Source of the DNA: Bacillota bacterium | GTDB taxonomy: Bacteria > Bacillota > Clostridia > Lachnospirales > CAG-274 | DNA: 21,932 nucleotides | Direction: 5' to 3' | Assembly: GCA_017627115.1 (NCBI GenBank) | Contig: JAGAHK010000297.1 | Coordinates: 1 to 21,932, forward strand | Shown here: one piece after another, positions 13,892 to 20,653 of the stretch | Layout of the letters: every line of letters starts with the position of its first letter | Position numbering within the stretch: position 1 is the stretch's first letter | The notes under the pieces: generated by a model | Told to the model about the DNA's origin: nothing | Database searches by the model: none | Seen by the model: the letters and a program-made list of their open reading frames with translations, nothing else | Translations under genes and position numbers: made by a program

Positions 13892-14755
13892 ATGAGTACA
13901 AAATTCAGTTTTAAAAAGGGTTACAGAGCTCGTGCAGTATTCGTTATCTGTAACGTAATATTCTTTGTTTTCATGATGGTCTGCATGATCGTACCTATCA
14001 TCAAGATCCTTTCCGACTCTTTGATGAACCATACGGTTTACGGTCTTCAGCTCATCCCCGATGAATTCAACCTTATCGCATATAAAGACATTTTCTCACA
14101 GGATTCCTTGAGAAGACCTTTCTTTATTTCGATATACACAACACTTATGACTACTTTTCTGGGTCTTCTTGTTTCCACCATCGGTGCTTACATCCTTATC
14201 CAGAGAGAAATGCCCGGCGTTAAGTTCTTCGGTTATATGCTTATGTTCACTATGATCTTCAACGGCGGTCTTATCCCTACATTCCTTGTTATGAAGAAGC
14301 TCGGTCTTCTTAACTCTCTTTGGGCAGTTATCTTACCTATGGCGCTCAACGTATCTAACCTGGTACTTATGCGTTCATTCTTCGAGGGTCTGCCTACAAG
14401 CCTTTTCGAGGCTGCCGAGATCGACGGCTGTACTCCTATCGGTACATTCATCAAGATCGTGCTTCCTATTTCAAAGGCTGCTCTTGCATCTATCGGCCTG
14501 TTCTTCGCGGTTGCTGCATGGAGTGAATACTTCCACTATGTAATGTACATCAGTGATACAAAGAAGTATAACTTCCAGTACAAACTGCGTGACCTTTTCG
14601 CTGATAAGATAGAACAGTCGGACGGTATAAACATCAACGTTAAGACTCTTCAGTCTGCCGCTATCATCGTTTCTATCGTTCCTTTCATGTTCATCTATCC
14701 TTTCTGCCAGAAGTACTTTATGACAGGTATCACAATGGGTGCTGTTAAGGAATAA
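13892..14755 (+). CDS. Sugar ABC transporter permease, LplC/YtcP type
   Basis: The 287-residue partner permease, with six predicted helices beginning at about 14-40 (ARAVFVICNVIFFVFMMVC) and an EAA loop EAAEIDGCTPIGTFIKIVLP at 173-192. The C-terminus FMTGITMGAVKE is typical of the CUT1-like second permease. AAGGAGG at 13874-13880 overlaps the previous stop codon region. It ends the operon; a terminator follows within 45 bp. Confidence 0.93.
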   Translation: MSTKFSFKKGYRARAVFVICNVIFFVFMMVCMIVPIIKILSDSLMNHTVYGLQLIPDEFNLIAYKDIFSQDSLRRPFFISIYTTLMTTFLGLLVSTIGAYILIQREMPGVKFFGYMLMFTMIFNGGLIPTFLVMKKLGLLNSLWAVILPMALNVSNLVLMRSFFEGLPTSLFEAAEIDGCTPIGTFIKIVLPISKAALASIGLFFAVAAWSEYFHYVMYISDTKKYNFQYKLRDLFADKIEQSDGININVKTLQSAAIIVSIVPFMFIYPFCQKYFMTGITMGAVKE

Positions 14756-14796: not shown

Positions 14797-14826
14797 AAGG
14801 CTGCCGCAATATGGCAGCCTTTTTTC
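14797..14826. terminator. Rho-independent terminator shared by ABC operon and spoVA operon
   Basis: AAAGGCTGCC (14796-14805) and GGCAGCCTTT (14813-14822) form a 10-bp stem with a 7-base loop, followed by Ts to 14825 on the plus strand. The spoVAEb stop (14826-14828, minus strand) abuts it. In reverse the stem ends in only three Ts, so it is stronger for the ABC operon. Confidence 0.88.
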
Positions 14827-15179
14827 TATTTTTCTTTTGGTCTGAATATCACCGCTGCGGCAAATGCACTCACTATAGCCGCGGCTATACCGCCTGCGCC
14901 TGCTTTTATGCCGCCTGTCAGTATTCCAAGCGCACCGACACTGTCTATCTCTTCTTTAACACCCTTTGCAAGCAGGTTTCCGAACCCGGGCAGAGGCACA
15001 TTCGCACCTGCGCCTGCAAAATCAGCAAGTTTCTCGTACCACCCCAGACCTCCGAGAATACACCCGACTACCACGAATAATACCAATATCCTTGCCGAAG
15101 TCAGCTTTGTCTTGTCTATAAGTATCTGACCTATCACACATATCAGTCCGCCTACCGCAAATGCCTTTAAATATTCCAT
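14826..15179 (-). CDS. spoVAE: Stage V sporulation protein AE (SpoVAEb)
   Basis: A 117-residue integral membrane protein of the SpoVAC/SpoVAEb fold, with about four hydrophobic helices. The conserved loop DFAGAGANVPLPGFGN parallels the GAGSIVPITGFSN loop of the neighbouring SpoVAC. SpoVA proteins form the channel in the spore inner membrane that takes up dipicolinic acid during sporulation and releases it at germination. The ATG (15179) overlaps the end of spoVAD by 13 bp and follows a GAGGCGGTG ribosome binding site. It is the last gene of the operon; spoVAEa and spoVAF, present in Bacillus, are absent here. Confidence 0.92.
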   Translation of the reverse strand: MEYLKAFAVGGLICVIGQILIDKTKLTSARILVLFVVVGCILGGLGWYEKLADFAGAGANVPLPGFGNLLAKGVKEEIDSVGALGILTGGIKAGAGGIAAAIVSAFAAAVIFRPKEK

Positions 15180-16186
15180 TTCACCGCCTCGCTTTCTATC
15201 GCCACCGCATGCGCTATGCCTGCTATGCTTTCGCCCTCGTTTATCGAATCCGTACTCATCAGCGCACCCGTGGGAATAAAAAGAATACGCTTTAAAGCGC
15301 CGCTTTTCAGCTTCCTGTAAAGCATACCTCCGAAAACAGCCGCCGAACAGGCACAGCCGCTGCCGCCAGAGTGCGTGTCCTGTGTTTCGCGGTCAAACAT
15401 CTCTATGCCGCAGTCACTGTACTGTTTGGAAATATCAAGCTTCTTTTCATCCAATAACTGCAAAAGCAGGTCTTTGCCGACATACCCCAGATCTCCCGTT
15501 ATAATAAGGTCGTAATGATCGGGATGCCGCCCCGTGTCACAAAAATGCGCATATATGCAGTCCGCTGCGGCAGGTGCCATTGCTGCACCCATATTGGATG
15601 AATCCTTGACACCGTAATCGACGATCTTACCCGTAGTCACGGCTGTTATATAGGGTGGTTTGTCGGCATTTGATACCATTGCCGCACCGTCACCCGTTAC
15701 GGTGTAAGTGGCGGTAGGCGGCCGCTGATTGCCAAGCTCAAGCGGAAAACGGAACTGCCGCTCCGCACTGCAAAAGTGGCTTGATGCCGCTGCGATAACA
15801 TTTTCCGCACCGCCGCTGTCAACAAGTACCGCCGCAAGGCTCAAAGCCTCGCCAAAGGTAGAACAGGCACCGAAAATGCCGAAAAACGGTATCTCCAGAT
15901 CTCGTATGCCGTAGGTGGATGCACAGCATTGGTTGAGCAGGTCGCCCGAAAGAATGTAATCGGGCTTTGCGGTGCATTTTTTCATAAGCAGCTGTAAGTT
16001 TTGCTTTACTATAGCTATTTCAGCCGCTTCCCAGCTTTTTTGTCCTGCCATATTATCCTTTAATATTTGGTCGAAATACTTGCCCAAAGGTCCTGCGCCC
16101 TCTTTTGTGCCGACCGTGACCGCCGTTTCAAGCACAGAAACGGGGGACGAAAAGACCATAGTCTGTTTGCCGATATGTTTTGCCAT
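15167..16186 (-). CDS. spoVAD: Stage V sporulation protein AD (DPA-binding)
   Basis: The 339-residue protein has the thiolase-like fold typical of SpoVAD, which binds Ca-dipicolinate on the spore inner membrane. Recognisable segments are FSSPVSVLETAVTVGTKEGAGPLGKYFD at the N-terminus, GIFGACSTFGEALSLAA (about 104-120), TVTGDGAAMVS, and HSGGSGCACSA near residue 280. ATG 16186 follows GGGAGGT. The spoVAC stop lies 4 bp upstream, so translation is coupled. Length matches the family. Confidence 0.95.
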   Translation of the reverse strand: MAKHIGKQTMVFSSPVSVLETAVTVGTKEGAGPLGKYFDQILKDNMAGQKSWEAAEIAIVKQNLQLLMKKCTAKPDYILSGDLLNQCCASTYGIRDLEIPFFGIFGACSTFGEALSLAAVLVDSGGAENVIAAASSHFCSAERQFRFPLELGNQRPPTATYTVTGDGAAMVSNADKPPYITAVTTGKIVDYGVKDSSNMGAAMAPAAADCIYAHFCDTGRHPDHYDLIITGDLGYVGKDLLLQLLDEKKLDISKQYSDCGIEMFDRETQDTHSGGSGCACSAAVFGGMLYRKLKSGALKRILFIPTGALMSTDSINEGESIAGIAHAVAIESEAVKWNI

Positions 16187-16189
16187 AGC

Positions 16190-16630
16190 TTACCTCCCGA
16201 GAAAATAGTAAAATATGCCGACAATGACGGAAGTCAGCGTGCCGTAGAGTATGACGGGCCCTGCAATAATGAATATCTTTGCGCCGACACCCAGGATAAA
16301 GCCCTCCTGCTTGAACTCCACCGCAGGCGAGGTGACCGAGTTTGAAAAGCCCGTTATGGGTACGATAGAGCCTGCGCCCGCAAACTTGCCTATTTTGCTG
16401 TATATGCCAAGCCCCGTCAGCAGCGAGGCAGCGGCAATGAGGATAACGGAGGTGAGAGTGCCCGAAGTCTTTTCGTCAAAACCGCTTGTCAGCATAAAAT
16501 TTGTGATAAACTGCCCGATAACGCAGATAAGACCTCCCACAAAAAATGCTTTTATACAGTTTTTTAAAATGGGACTGTCGGGCGAAGCCTTTTTGACCAT
16601 CTGCGAATATTTTTGCTTTATGTTTTCCAT
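16190..16630 (-). CDS. spoVAC: Stage V sporulation protein AC
   Basis: From ATG 16630 the protein has 146 residues with four hydrophobic helices and the SpoVAC loop FAGAGSIVPITGFSNSV; SpoVAC is a mechanosensitive-type channel component of the spore DPA transporter. The frame is open further, to 16720, but the extra 30 residues overlap the end of spoVAB and lack family similarity, while AAGGAG just before 16630 is an ideal ribosome binding site. A 79-bp gap with a small CGCAGG/CCTGCG hairpin (16684-16707) separates it from spoVAB. Confidence 0.93.
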   Translation of the reverse strand: MENIKQKYSQMVKKASPDSPILKNCIKAFFVGGLICVIGQFITNFMLTSGFDEKTSGTLTSVILIAAASLLTGLGIYSKIGKFAGAGSIVPITGFSNSVTSPAVEFKQEGFILGVGAKIFIIAGPVILYGTLTSVIVGIFYYFLGR

Positions 16631-16709: not shown

Positions 16710-17141
16710 TTAATCCACAAAAAATCCCGGTACGGTATAATACAGCACCGAGCCTACAAGTTTTCCGACCGCCAATGCAGTCACAAAATACTTTATCCCC
16801 TTTTTCAGCCTGCCGCGCCTTGCAAGTATCGGTATCACATCCAGCACTTCCGCAAGCGATACCGCAAGACAGCCGTAAAATACACCTGTCAGCAGCATCA
16901 GAAACATTGCGGCAGGCACGCCTATAGGCAGATACCAATTATACATCAGGTACAGTGTGCCCGAAATACCGCCGATTATTATACCCGTTTCGTAAGTGCG
17001 TATCTTCTCTTTTGTGCCCGTTTTCTGCGCTATGCGCGGCACAACACCGATGATCGCAATAAATGCGAATACCGCACCCGCGATCACCACGCCCGAACCA
17101 AACCCAAGCGTTATAAAAATCAGAATTTTAATAATCTCCAT
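16710..17141 (-). CDS. spoVAB: Stage V sporulation protein AB
   Basis: A 143-residue membrane protein with five hydrophobic segments. The start FITLGFGSGVVIAGAVFAFIA and the middle LLTGVFYGCLAVSLAEVLDVIPILARR match SpoVAB as known from Bacillus. Its precise role in the SpoVA complex is unsettled. ATG 17141 lies 24 bp after the spoVAA stop, with a G-rich but imperfect ribosome binding site (TTGGGGCT). Many Clostridium species lack spoVAA and spoVAB, so their presence resembles the Bacillus-type operon. Confidence 0.9.
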   Translation of the reverse strand: MEIIKILIFITLGFGSGVVIAGAVFAFIAIIGVVPRIAQKTGTKEKIRTYETGIIIGGISGTLYLMYNWYLPIGVPAAMFLMLLTGVFYGCLAVSLAEVLDVIPILARRGRLKKGIKYFVTALAVGKLVGSVLYYTVPGFFVD

Positions 17142-17165: not shown

Positions 17166-17777
17166 TTAATTATTGCCGCCGTTCTTCCTCTGTGCGTTCA
17201 GGGTGTCGATGATATTATCGGTAACGTCGCTTTCGTAGGTCGACATCTCCACCTCGATAGGCGTAGGGTCGGAGGTCAGCTTTTTGCCCGTAAAATGATT
17301 GAAGAACACTATTATCCCGACCGCAAGCCCGATAGAGTAGGGCAGATGTATCACCGCAGGGTTTATACTTCTGCTGCCGAAGAATATGCGGTAATAGGTC
17401 TCGAATACGCGCGACATCTGAGCATCGGAGTGAAAACTCATTATTGCCGTTGCCGAACCCGAGGCAAGCATCAGTGTCACAAGTGCGGTCTTTATAAACA
17501 GCTTTATGCCGCCCTCGTGTTTTTTCGGCGAATCATATTCTATCACCGTGTCGGTCTCACCAACATTGCTGATGTCAAAATTCGGGAAAGCCGCACTGAT
17601 TTTTGCGATGATATCGGTCACGGATACAAGATAGCTCTTATCCTCTGTTACCTCGGCTATTTTCAGCGCCTTTACACGCTTTTCAATATCTTTCGGCGCA
17701 ACTATCTCCGCAATGTCGCCTATTTTTACACTGCCTTTTGCACTCGCCTTTTTTACGGGCTTTATATATATGGTCAT
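17166..17777 (-). CDS. spoVAA: Stage V sporulation protein AA
   Basis: The 203-residue protein begins with a beta-rich soluble domain (MTIYIKPVKKASAKGSVKIGDIAEIV) of about 85 residues. Membrane helices follow (about 92-112 and 142-162, the latter PYSIGLAVGIIVFFNHF, a strong SpoVAA hallmark), then a hydrophilic end. The ATG at 17777 overlaps the stop of the upstream 43-codon gene as ATGA, and the upstream ribosome binding site is weak, so translation is likely coupled to that small gene. Confidence 0.9.
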   Translation of the reverse strand: MTIYIKPVKKASAKGSVKIGDIAEIVAPKDIEKRVKALKIAEVTEDKSYLVSVTDIIAKISAAFPNFDISNVGETDTVIEYDSPKKHEGGIKLFIKTALVTLMLASGSATAIMSFHSDAQMSRVFETYYRIFFGSRSINPAVIHLPYSIGLAVGIIVFFNHFTGKKLTSDPTPIEVEMSTYESDVTDNIIDTLNAQRKNGGNN

Positions 17778-17905
17778 TGTGTTGTCACCACTCTCACAAA
17801 AGTACCGTTCTGCGGCTCGAATGTGGGAGGATGTGTGCGGTTGAAGATATAAATGCCTGCAAGTGCCGCAAGCAGTATCAGTATAAGCAGAATATTCAGC
17901 TTCAT
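17774..17905 (-). CDS. Small membrane-anchored or secreted protein leading the spoVA operon (43 aa)
   Basis: The predicted protein begins MKLNILLILILLAALAGIYI, a single hydrophobic helix or signal segment. About 23 polar residues follow (FNRTHPPTFEPQNG, then TFVRVVTTQ). Support for it being a gene: GGGGTG at a suitable distance before ATG 17905, a stop that overlaps the spoVAA start as ATGA, hydrophobic-then-polar design, and a sigma-G-like promoter about 40 bp upstream with no other gene between. I know of no named counterpart in the Bacillus spoVA operon. It could be a SpoVA accessory peptide or act mainly to couple translation. Confidence 0.65.
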   Translation of the reverse strand: MKLNILLILILLAALAGIYIFNRTHPPTFEPQNGTFVRVVTTQ

Positions 17906-17942
17906 TTTTGTCACCCCGTATATTAATCTAATTCGCTGACTA

Positions 17943-17971
17943 TAGTTTGCCGCATACGGTTTTTTTTATGC
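17943..17971 (-). promoter_or_regulatory. Sigma-G-type forespore promoter for the spoVA operon
   Basis: Read on the minus strand, GCATA at 17971-17967 fits the sigma-G -35 (GHATR). CAAACTA at 17949-17943 fits the -10 (CATWMTA) except for one base, with a 17-bp spacer. Transcription would start near 17935, about 30 bases before the 43-codon gene. The Bacillus spoVA operon is sigma-G dependent, which agrees. Confidence 0.65.
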
Positions 17972-18030: not shown

Positions 18031-18396
18031 ATGCTCGGTAAACGCGCTTCGGAGCTTTACAGGCGCGGTGAAAGCTGCTCCGCCTGCATTTTGAAAGCCT
18101 ATGAGGATGTATACGGGATGAGGCTGCCCAAAGATTATTATAAGATCTGCCCGGGCATAAACAACGGTTTCGGCACGGGCGGAATGTGCAGTGCCGCGGT
18201 TGCCGCTGTGATCGTGCTTGCGTACCGCCTGCGTGACGAAACGATGATAAAACAGGCGCGCATATATTTTCTGACGGCAGTTAACGAAAAACTTAAAAGC
18301 ACGTCATGCGGCAGATTGAAAACCGATTGCAGGACAGCTGTTTTTGAATGTGGAGAGATACTTGAAGAAACGATAGATAAGTTTGAGAAAGAATAA
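18031..18396 (+). CDS. C_GCAxxG_C_C family cysteine-rich (redox-type) protein
   Basis: The 121-residue soluble protein has the family's spaced cysteines: C16/C19 (SCSAC), C40, C53 in NGFGTGGMCSAA, then C93 and C100 in TSCGRLKTDC, and C107. The family is thought to bind a metal or cluster or to act in redox reactions, but no activity is established. AAAGGAGG with good spacing defines ATG 18031. It is divergent from the spoVA operon across 125 bp, so it may share sporulation timing, though I see no convincing plus-strand promoter. The stop is followed by a hairpin that serves mainly the opposite strand. Confidence 0.82.
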   Translation: MLGKRASELYRRGESCSACILKAYEDVYGMRLPKDYYKICPGINNGFGTGGMCSAAVAAVIVLAYRLRDETMIKQARIYFLTAVNEKLKSTSCGRLKTDCRTAVFECGEILEETIDKFEKE

Positions 18397-18472: not shown

Positions 18473-20653
18473 TTATTTCTTTTCCACAGGCATCATAAAG
18501 CTGCCGTTGAGTGTTTTTTGCAGTACATTTGTCGCATCGTTTGCGGTCACGCCGCTTTCGCCGTCAACATCACAGCGTGTTTCAAACTTCTCATCGACTG
18601 CGAGCGCGCTCTTGTTGAGAACATACTGCAATATCATTGCCGAATCGTTTGCCTCTATTTTGCCGTTTGAGTCCGCATCGCCGTAAAGTATGTCTTCGGT
18701 CGGTGTGGGTATATCTGCATCGGGAAGTGTGGGCGGTATTTCCGCGCCGTCATATTCGGCAACTTCTATATAATAGAAATCCACATTGGACTTGGGTGCG
18801 ATAGTGTAGGTGCCTGCCTTTAAAAGCTCGATAGTGGTCAGCACATCGTTGCCCTTGTTGCCCGATTGGAATGTGCCGTGGTAAACAGCATCGGGTTCTG
18901 CGGAATTTGTGACCTCCATACGCACGGGAGAGTTTGCGGTGCTGCTTGCTATCATTGTAAGCTTTGCCTGCGAACTTGTGGTAAAGGTAATGTTGCCGCT
19001 TGAAGAAAAGCTGCCCGAATAATTATATTTTTCGGTGCCGCGGTAGCCGGAAGCGGTGTTTGATTTAAGGCTTATGCTGCCCTTGAAGAAATCACCCGTG
19101 CCGTCTTTACCGCCGAATGCCGATGCACTGCCGCTTGTTTCGGGGTCATAGTAATATACGTTTGTTATATTGCCCTTTGCTTCGGGAGCCGCAATATCTT
19201 CCAACTCGGGATAAACCGTGTCTTTGAGTGTGCCTGCGTTGTAAAAAGCGTTTGCACGCGCATCTTCGGGGCTTTCAAGCAGATAGTTCTTTGCTGCGAT
19301 ATAGCCCGAAGCATCAAAGTTATTGTAGGTATAGCCGCCTGCTTTTGTGGTGTAATCATCGGCTGTGAGCCTGTATTCACGGCTCGGTGCTACAAAGTAG
19401 TCAATGCCTTCAAGACTTTCCCATGTGTTTAAAAGTATGTTGTTATATGCTTTGATAACGCCGCCGTCGTTGCTTGAAAACTTGGATGCAAAGCCGCCCT
19501 GCGAAGATGTCAGGAAAGGCGAGGACGCATCCTCGAAGAAGTTGTTTTCGGCAAAAATGCTTGCGTTGCAGGTGCAGCCTATGCCATAGGCGGTAGTGCC
19601 GTAGTAATAGTTGTTGTAGGCATGGATATTATGCCACCTTACGCGCGGTGTTCTCTGACCCGTGTGGTCAAAGTAATTGTGGTGGAAGGTGATATTGCCC
19701 GTACTTTCACGGCTTGTTGAACTTGAACCGATAAGCGATGTCTTGTCGGTGTTTTTAAAATGGTTGTAGCTTACCGTGACATTGTTGCATTCACGCAGAT
19801 CGCAGGAACCGTCGCCGTGGAGCTTGTCTCTTTCGGCTGTGCTGTCCTTGGGGTTGTAGCCCGAATAAAAGTCGTTGTTATGTATCCAGAGTTTTGTCGA
19901 TTTTTCAAAACCGATGGCATCCTCGATGTAATCGCGGAAAGAAAGATTGCGGAACTCGGTGTCTTTATTATCGCCCGAACCGATACCCCAGCCGACAAAG
20001 CCCGAACCCGGACCTACGCCCTCGATGGTAACGCCGCAGGTATTTTTCCACATACCCGGAGAAGTGTCACTTGAACTTAAGGGTGTTACCTCGCCTATAA
20101 CGCGCAGAATTACGGGCTTTTTGCCGTTAAGGCTGTCAAAACCGCTTAAAATGCTTTTGATATTTTTGTTATTGTATACGTTTTTCTTGTTTTCTTCCGT
20201 AACGTAGATTATAAGCGCATCATCGGGGACCGTGCCGTCTGCGTTGTATGCGCCCGGGGCGTTGTTTGTGCCGTCAAAAGCAAAGCCCGAACGGTCAAAA
20301 GGCGCAGGTTCCGCACTGAAATTGCATTTTTCGGAACCGTCTGTGGCTTCAAGCGTGATCTCATATTCCGTGTTGCCTTTCAGACCGAGGATGTCGAGGC
20401 GGTATTTGCCCTCGCTTACCTCTCGGATAAGCTCCGCATCGACGGTTTTGACGTCTGTTGTGCCTTTTTCCCGATATGTGGCTTTATATGTCTTGTTGGG
20501 CGTACTTTTCCATTCGGCATATGTCGATTCGTACCATGAGCCGATGTTGAGCATCTCTGCATCTTCCGCCTGAACGGAAACTATGCCGAATGAGCCGAAT
20601 ACCATTGCTGCCGACAGCAGTGCCGACACAAATCTTGCTTTAAATTTTTTCAT
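18473..20653 (-). CDS. Secreted pectate lyase (PL1 family) with dockerin
   Basis: Cleaves polygalacturonate by beta-elimination outside the cell. Order in the 726 residues: signal peptide ending near VQA-ED (29-30); a fibronectin-III-like beta domain (about 35-115); and a right-handed beta-helix PL1 domain (about 120-475). The PL1 domain has Ca-site region HGDGSCDL (279-286), HHNYFDHTGQRTPRVRWHNI (324-343, with the RTPRVR catalytic arginine motif) and repeated N-rich turns. A CBM-like beta-sandwich (about 505-635), a Pro/Thr linker and a dockerin complete the protein. The dockerin's two Ca-binding repeats start DADSNGKIEAND (659-670) and DVDGESGVTAND (695-706). The dockerin implies attachment to a cohesin scaffold encoded elsewhere. 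The ribosome binding site is AGAGGGA. It follows apbE by 30 bp. Confidence 0.93.
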   Translation of the reverse strand: MKKFKARFVSALLSAAMVFGSFGIVSVQAEDAEMLNIGSWYESTYAEWKSTPNKTYKATYREKGTTDVKTVDAELIREVSEGKYRLDILGLKGNTEYEITLEATDGSEKCNFSAEPAPFDRSGFAFDGTNNAPGAYNADGTVPDDALIIYVTEENKKNVYNNKNIKSILSGFDSLNGKKPVILRVIGEVTPLSSSDTSPGMWKNTCGVTIEGVGPGSGFVGWGIGSGDNKDTEFRNLSFRDYIEDAIGFEKSTKLWIHNNDFYSGYNPKDSTAERDKLHGDGSCDLRECNNVTVSYNHFKNTDKTSLIGSSSTSRESTGNITFHHNYFDHTGQRTPRVRWHNIHAYNNYYYGTTAYGIGCTCNASIFAENNFFEDASSPFLTSSQGGFASKFSSNDGGVIKAYNNILLNTWESLEGIDYFVAPSREYRLTADDYTTKAGGYTYNNFDASGYIAAKNYLLESPEDARANAFYNAGTLKDTVYPELEDIAAPEAKGNITNVYYYDPETSGSASAFGGKDGTGDFFKGSISLKSNTASGYRGTEKYNYSGSFSSSGNITFTTSSQAKLTMIASSTANSPVRMEVTNSAEPDAVYHGTFQSGNKGNDVLTTIELLKAGTYTIAPKSNVDFYYIEVAEYDGAEIPPTLPDADIPTPTEDILYGDADSNGKIEANDSAMILQYVLNKSALAVDEKFETRCDVDGESGVTANDATNVLQKTLNGSFMMPVEKK

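Follow-up and report, generated by a model that had tools for sequence, protein, structure and literature searches.

A conserved small gene at the head of the clostridial spoVA operon encodes a predicted membrane microprotein that may be an accessory component of the SpoVA channel

The window analyzed here, the whole stretch of 21,932 nucleotides from a Bacillota bacterium (contig JAGAHK010000297.1), carries on its minus strand a spoVA operon with spoVAA (17166-17777; Pfam PF12164, E 1.6e-19), spoVAB (16710-17141; PF13782, E 6.8e-35), spoVAC (16190-16630; PF03862, E 1.3e-41), spoVAD (15167-16186; PF07451, E 1.7e-141) and spoVAEb (14826-15179; PF03862, E 7e-36). Past spoVAEb, the next long non-shadow frame (13892-14755) lies on the opposite strand. 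Ahead of spoVAA, on the same strand, we found an ORF of 43 codons and a stop (17774-17905), the product of which is MKLNILLILILLAALAGIYIFNRTHPPTFEPQNGTFVRVVTTQ; its HMM and hhalign relatives and its dN/dS mark it as a gene for a small predicted membrane protein, the first cistron of spoVA. It extends from an ATG at 17905-17903 to a TGA at 17776-17774, and this stop overlaps the ATG of spoVAA (17777-17775) as ATGA (17774-17777). A Shine-Dalgarno sequence of its own, GGGGTGA, is located at 17911-17917 (minus strand; duplex of -10.7 kcal/mol), and since an alternative GTG at 17914 falls within it, the ATG at 17905 is the likely start. Farther upstream, at 17943-17971 of the minus strand, a sigma-G-like promoter, GCATA-N17-CAAACTA, differs by one mismatch from the consensus GHATR/CATWHTA known from work on Bacillus subtilis. 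Within the small gene, codons of a transmembrane helix, read directly from the sequence at about residues 3-21, occupy 17843-17899, those of a conserved tail motif detected with a motif finder, here N-G-T-F-V, occupy 17795-17809, and the Shine-Dalgarno sequence of spoVAA, GGTGA (duplex of -10.9 kcal/mol), occupies 17785-17789, all on the minus strand. The first-pass annotation had thus been correct in placing a short ORF between a sigma-G-like promoter and spoVAA, and in its description of the ATGA junction. Its assignment of the host to Oscillospiraceae was rejected, as the order in question includes Anaerotignum and is Lachnospirales.

Some neighboring features deserve mention in their own right. 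A gene for a putative C_GCAxxG_C_C redox protein (18031-18396, plus strand) is divergent from the operon and has its upstream region in common with the sigma-G-like promoter of spoVA. A pectate lyase of 726 residues, encoded at 18473-20653 on the minus strand, carries a type I dockerin at its C-terminus and may be a sign of a cellulosome-like system in this genome. A 185-residue frame on the plus strand (17295-17852), antisense to spoVAA and to the small gene, is probably a shadow of the coding strand.

The small ORF is a protein gene under purifying selection. In 20 independent pairs picked on SpoVAA identity (0.70-0.995), with the last 12 nt before spoVAA excluded, its dN/dS was 0.30 in its own frame; the two shifted frames, read from the same alignments, gave 0.88 and 1.46, and spoVAA gave 0.10. 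Third codon positions accounted for 312 of the 653 differences (p=2.7e-14), and when 18 of the 20 pairs were divided into parts, the N-terminus with the helix (0.29) and the tail (0.28) gave nearly identical values. One pair (G083/G112) contributed no differences to this set. A value of 0.17, obtained with pairs picked by similarity of the small protein, is biased low, and the set chosen on SpoVAA identity replaces it. It had been proposed at the outset that lack of conservation among relatives, or substitutions blind to codon position, should speak against the gene; the dN/dS of 0.30 and the excess at third positions favor it.

Relatives of the protein are alike in having a single transmembrane helix, followed by a tail with the motif [GA]-x-[FL]-V, in which x is most frequently T. 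When the motif finder was applied to 99 tails it returned [SY]-x-[GA]-T-[FL]-V with a score of 854, compared to 354-375 for shuffled tails; G or A was present in 86 of these 99 sequences, T in 43, F or L in 84 and V in 81. The motif lies at a median of 9 residues past the helix core; relative to the spoVAA start, however, its distance varies and each of the three phases is represented, which rules out that it merely reflects a DNA element anchored at that start. Charges are distributed unevenly along the 99 members, with 2.48 K/R and 0.33 D/E per protein before the helix and 1.84 K/R and 2.07 D/E after it. According to the positive-inside rule, the excess of K/R before the helix would orient the N-terminus toward the core and the tail outward, and the protein is predicted to reside in the membrane in this orientation.

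Comparisons by hhalign connected the window's family (f1) with family f6 at 96%, and both of them with other families of the order at 96-97%. Other orders were reached at 89% from f6 and at 78% from f1, the range across these sets being 78-92%, while the connection to other classes (36-81%) is the weakest link of the family; controls made from transmembrane parts of SpoVAA and SpoVAB gave 13% at most. Family f6 includes Faecalimonas, as a protein named Faecalimonas at NCBI (P0017) equals the protein of G246 from its second Met on. The alignment of 81 sequences omitted the ORFs of G203, G278, G328 and G371, all four judged by eye to be SpoVAEb; profile A2 consists of 65 of those 81 sequences, trimmed, and profile A3 of 98 of the 99 members, one identical copy having been omitted. 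The alignment of SpoVAA itself (A4) holds 74 of 189 sequences.

No Pfam or NCBIfam family describes the small protein. Pfam returned no family for the product of 17774-17905 at E up to 1, and the one NCBIfam match of the window's protein was to SecE, at 15 bits, far below the cut-off. When 65 members were compared with both collections (E up to 0.1), 70 Pfam and 78 NCBIfam families were touched, and among the best 25 of each no family was touched by more than 3 (Pfam) or 4 (NCBIfam) members; PF12164, PF13782, PF03862 and PF07451 were absent among the best 25 of those 70 Pfam families. By its sequence the small protein thus matches no SpoVA subunit family. Used alone as a query, it retrieved no sequence but its own, and profile A2 found 23 proteins at E<=0.01 among 5.8 billion, the window's own included; the five of these 23 that bear a name are all called hypothetical or uncharacterised. 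The earlier view that the gene is below gene-calling cutoffs was consequently only partly right, for some database copies are annotated, as hypothetical proteins. Profile matches in the PDB numbered 12 at E up to 1 (best 0.005) and were to membrane anchors and unrelated proteins. By title or abstract opening we found no paper concerning this gene, in a literature search whose scope took in few subscription papers.

To follow the gene across the phylum we used 193 spoVAA loci, 43 from the family, 118 from the order, 19 from the class search and 13 from the phylum search. They were sampled by score and list position and are thus non-random, the order-level loci being high scorers for PF12164, and many of the named genomes are metagenome assemblies. 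An ORF of 34-105 aa with a strong hydrophobic helix, ending between about 110 nt before and 65 nt after the spoVAA start, was present directly upstream of spoVAA at 99 of the 193 loci, or at 91 of 185 if the eight loci (L163-L170) that were fetched through a small-protein match are left aside. Markov resampling of the same regions gave such an ORF in 20 of 3820 cases (0.5%), and an antisense control, in which real coding composition is kept, in 14 of 190. The HMM added four cases (G032, G035, G037 and G044), which brings the count to 103 of 193. In G032 and G035 the ORF ends about 250 and 415 nt upstream of spoVAA; in G037 and G044 (L154 and L161, genus g10) there is no ATG, GTG or TTG between the last stop and the helix. 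In G041 of the same genus (L158) the first such codon is at the edge of the helix, and the copies of G037, G041 and G044 either need a rare start, for example ATT or ATA, or are damaged.

In the window's genus, spoVAA was found in all six genomes searched, each time with a short hydrophobic ORF ahead of it. In the family as a whole, where spoVAA was found in 43 of 48 genomes, the HMM detected the ORF in 23 of the 43, and its presence was all-or-none per genus: 6/6 in g1, 3/3 in g2, 1/1 in g3, 1/1 in g5, 4/4 in g8 and 8/8 in g10, as against 0/5, 0/6 and 0/9 at the spoVAA loci of g4, g6 and g7. The ORF precedes spoVAA at 16 of 17 loci from other orders of the class and at five of six loci outside the class, from families Pf149, Pf158, Pf195 and Pf224; at seven loci of a type that we call Bacilli from the look of SpoVAA (Pf129, Pf185 and Pf200) it was found at none. 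As 90 of the 193 spoVAA loci are without the ORF, including all seven of the Bacilli type, SpoVA can evidently work without the small protein. On the SpoVAA tree the presence of the ORF changed at least 18 times, compared to a mean of 63.8 for shuffled labels, which points to inheritance with repeated loss or gain.

We also considered that the small gene might have moved elsewhere in genomes lacking it at spoVAA. Profile searches of 53 of these 90 genomes gave only weak matches (best E 5.9e-6), 47 of them in 27 genomes and 44 of the 47 inside frames of more than 110 aa; within this scope a relocated copy was rejected. Fusion of the microprotein to SpoVAA was rejected as well, no in-frame N-terminal extension with a helix being present at the 193 loci within the reach of their sequences. 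At five loci of family f6 (L213, L226, L232, L185 and L196, of G278, G328, G203, G371 and G368, respectively), the ORF before spoVAA resembles spoVAEb by eye; the operon order is rearranged there, and no small ORF was found before spoVAA.

The association of the gene is not restricted to spoVAA. A profile of 98 members searched against 321 genomes of the class gave matches at E<=0.001 in 139 of them, many being weak and inside long frames. Among the best 30 loci, the ORF is next to spoVAA at 14 and next to spoVAC without a match to spoVAA at 11 (G489, G652, G557, G617, G682, G597, G462, G634, G495, G582 and G541), and these 11 genomes are absent from the 27 genomes of the class with PF12164. 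The rest comprise one chance match and four loci with a sigF-like gene upstream and an unrecognised gene downstream. In these four, G658 (L336), G632 (L339), G432 (L344) and G520 (L353), the small ORF follows the sigF-like gene, and its downstream neighbor could be identified neither as spoVAA nor as spoVAC; these loci may hold a diverged spoVAA or some other arrangement, and L353 ends soon after the ORF.

In a set anchored on spoVAD, consisting of 29 genomes of the class and non-random, many having been picked for a listed profile match, spoVAD was matched in 28 and preceded by spoVAC in 23. In these 23 loci, read by hand, a motif-bearing ORF stood before spoVAC in 15, was doubtful in 2 and was lacking in 6. 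These 15 spoVAC-linked proteins, with G445 and G442 (ORFs without the motif) and G541 (misplaced spoVAC start) omitted, matched the spoVAA-linked groups by hhalign at 92-97%, the values for f1, f6, other families and other orders being 95-97%, as compared with 7% at most for controls. Since the same protein precedes spoVAC without a detectable spoVAA, the gene is tied to the head of the operon rather than to spoVAA. Still, it is probably not universal in Clostridia, as a published map of C. difficile has spoVAC leading the operon directly behind a sigma-G promoter (PMC4959285).

The position of putative promoters agrees with this assignment. With at most one mismatch, the sigma-G consensus occurs 10-150 nt upstream of the ORF start at 44 of 98 loci (null mean 7.2), and in perfect form at 16 (null 0.43); within the ORF it occurs at only 4 of 98 (null 8.4) and never in perfect form. 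At loci without the ORF it is found upstream of spoVAA in 51 of 94 (null 5.7). A consensus upstream of the ORF, and not inside it, indicates that the ORF is part of a sigma-G-type transcript. In the literature, spoVAA is listed in the sigma-G regulon (PMC3416734). As a gene unit, the ORF belongs to the spoVA operon, for it lies on the same strand, adjoins spoVAA or spoVAC and stands behind a promoter-like site.

We consider the ORF to be the genuine first cistron of the forespore spoVA operon, and its product an accessory membrane microprotein of the SpoVA channel, with a probability of roughly two in three for this reading. The gene and its linkage to spoVA are well supported, its coding nature, selection, motif, operon and promoter position and distribution being computed results; the function we infer from the fact that the gene travels with the channel genes with or without spoVAA and spoVAB, and topology, membrane location and physical contact of the microprotein with SpoVA are likewise predictions, linkage in the genome being no proof of association. 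The first-pass suggestion of a new small component of the DPA channel therefore gains a conserved protein frame, a place at the head of a sigma-G-type operon and retention with spoVAC, its channel role keeping the status of a proposal. According to this proposal, a sigma-G-type forespore transcript would begin with the microprotein cistron, and the single-pass product would cross the inner forespore membrane with its N-terminus facing the core and its short polar tail, with [GA]-x-[FL]-V, on the outer face. There it might help to assemble, stabilise or gate the SpoVAC/SpoVAEb pore. A bolder version, which we put forward tentatively and would not yet favor, is that clostridial SpoVA has an unrecognised microprotein subunit, ancestral to the operon in Clostridia and, in Bacilli, either lost or absent from the beginning, the tail of which gates or assembles the SpoVAC/SpoVAEb pore. 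If true, it would shed light on the control of dipicolinate uptake and release in clostridia whose operon has neither spoVAA nor spoVAB.

Among the alternatives, the one that survives best, though we regard it as rather unlikely, is that the product is a forespore membrane microprotein whose gene only shares the spoVA transcript and whose target is a different one, such as germinant receptors, the sigma-F/sigma-G switch, cortex enzymes or membrane properties. That the small protein matches no SpoVA subunit family would suit such a role. So would the gene ahead of it, recognised by tblastn with one such protein and presumably sigF, which was found upstream at 61 of the 103 loci with the ORF and could mean that timing alone is shared; yet at 40 of them (two being undecidable) no such gene was found and the ORF stays with spoVA nevertheless. 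At the 90 loci without the ORF the corresponding numbers are 37, 50 and 3, and the median gap between the sigF-like gene and spoVAA is 87 nt, compared to 285 nt where the ORF is present; no significant association between adjacency of the sigF-like gene and presence of the ORF was detected, the informative pairs being too few. Retention of the ORF with spoVAC where spoVAA was not found, and the lack of a convincing relocated copy in the 53 genomes searched, also speak against mere co-transcription.

A different possibility, which we judge improbable, is that the act of translating the ORF controls how much SpoVAA is made, by termination and reinitiation, whereas the peptide itself has no part in it. 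The junctions lend this idea some appeal: 69 of the 99 copies run into the beginning of spoVAA, 11 of them through ATGA, and in the window the Shine-Dalgarno sequence of spoVAA sits within the small ORF. However, in 26 copies a gap of 0-28 nt and in four a gap of 71-77 nt separates the two genes, and with the two copies ending about 250 and 415 nt upstream, six lie some 71-415 nt away. The first-pass annotation, which offered control of spoVAA translation as an alternative to the channel role, had argued from the lack of a good ribosome binding site at spoVAA; this was rejected, for GGTGA at 17789-17785 forms a duplex of -10.9 kcal/mol, against -10.7 kcal/mol for that of the small ORF. The same holds more widely, as the Shine-Dalgarno sequence of spoVAA is normal both with the ORF (median -9.3 kcal/mol; 89 of 99 at -5 or better) and without it (-10.1 kcal/mol; 90 of 94), compared to shuffled upstream sequence (-3.1 kcal/mol; 57 of 193). 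Thus, in the window and at those 89 loci the downstream gene has its own ribosome binding site, and the peptide is not free to vary, selection acting at the amino-acid level with the tail included. The variable distance and phase of the motif relative to the spoVAA start and the presence of the same protein ahead of spoVAC likewise argue against a leader as the main role. A structured RNA leader was rejected too, Rfam having given no element above threshold, only a snoRNA match at E 0.26. Where the small gene and spoVAA overlap, their translation may nonetheless be coupled.

That the protein is a small hydrophobic toxin-like or phage-derived peptide, as its single hydrophobic helix and a weak PHROGs match to an Rz-like spanin could suggest, is very improbable in view of the operon position fixed across orders, the purifying selection and the sigma-G-type promoter, and the PHROGs match (E 0.56) is at chance level. 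That the ORF is a chance occurrence in the leader of spoVAA, as its shortness and the antisense control might suggest, is contradicted by the occurrence at 99 of 193 loci against 0.5% after resampling, by dN/dS and the codon-position test, and by a motif score far above that of shuffled tails, so that we give this explanation practically no weight.

Returning to the accessory-subunit reading, we note that knowledge of the SpoVA operon comes mostly from Bacillus subtilis, whose locus type had no small gene (0/7 loci), and that the copies in other genomes are so short that annotation can pass over them or leave them as hypothetical proteins. Should the microprotein prove to be a partner of the channel, a component would be missing from the current inventory of the dipicolinic-acid channel in gut clostridia, and the question of channel gating would gain a small, deletable and testable element.

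In Bacillus subtilis the SpoVA operon is spoVAA-AB-AC-AD-AEb-AEa-AF. The operon of the window resembles it in the downstream genes from spoVAA to spoVAEb and in the logic of a sigma-G-type promoter, but differs in having the microprotein as its first cistron, a protein that matches none of the SpoVA subunit families and was found at none of the seven Bacilli-type loci. According to published work, SpoVAC, SpoVAD and SpoVAEb constitute the minimal channel, and SpoVAA and SpoVAB are helpers, loss of which leads to premature germination (PMC11841064). The microprotein would be comparable to this pair as an accessory membrane protein encoded beside the core spoVAC, spoVAD and spoVAEb genes; unlike the pair, it has no match to PF12164 or PF13782, and its family is present where spoVAA is undetected. 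An analogy of layout only is offered by small transmembrane proteins encoded in germinant-receptor operons, for instance GerX(x), a 74-residue single-pass protein whose gene holds the ribosome binding site of the next gene (PMC5083711). GerX(x) and, by prediction, the microprotein are small single-pass membrane proteins whose genes carry the ribosome binding site of the following gene, GerX(x) in a germinant-receptor operon and the window's copy in spoVA.
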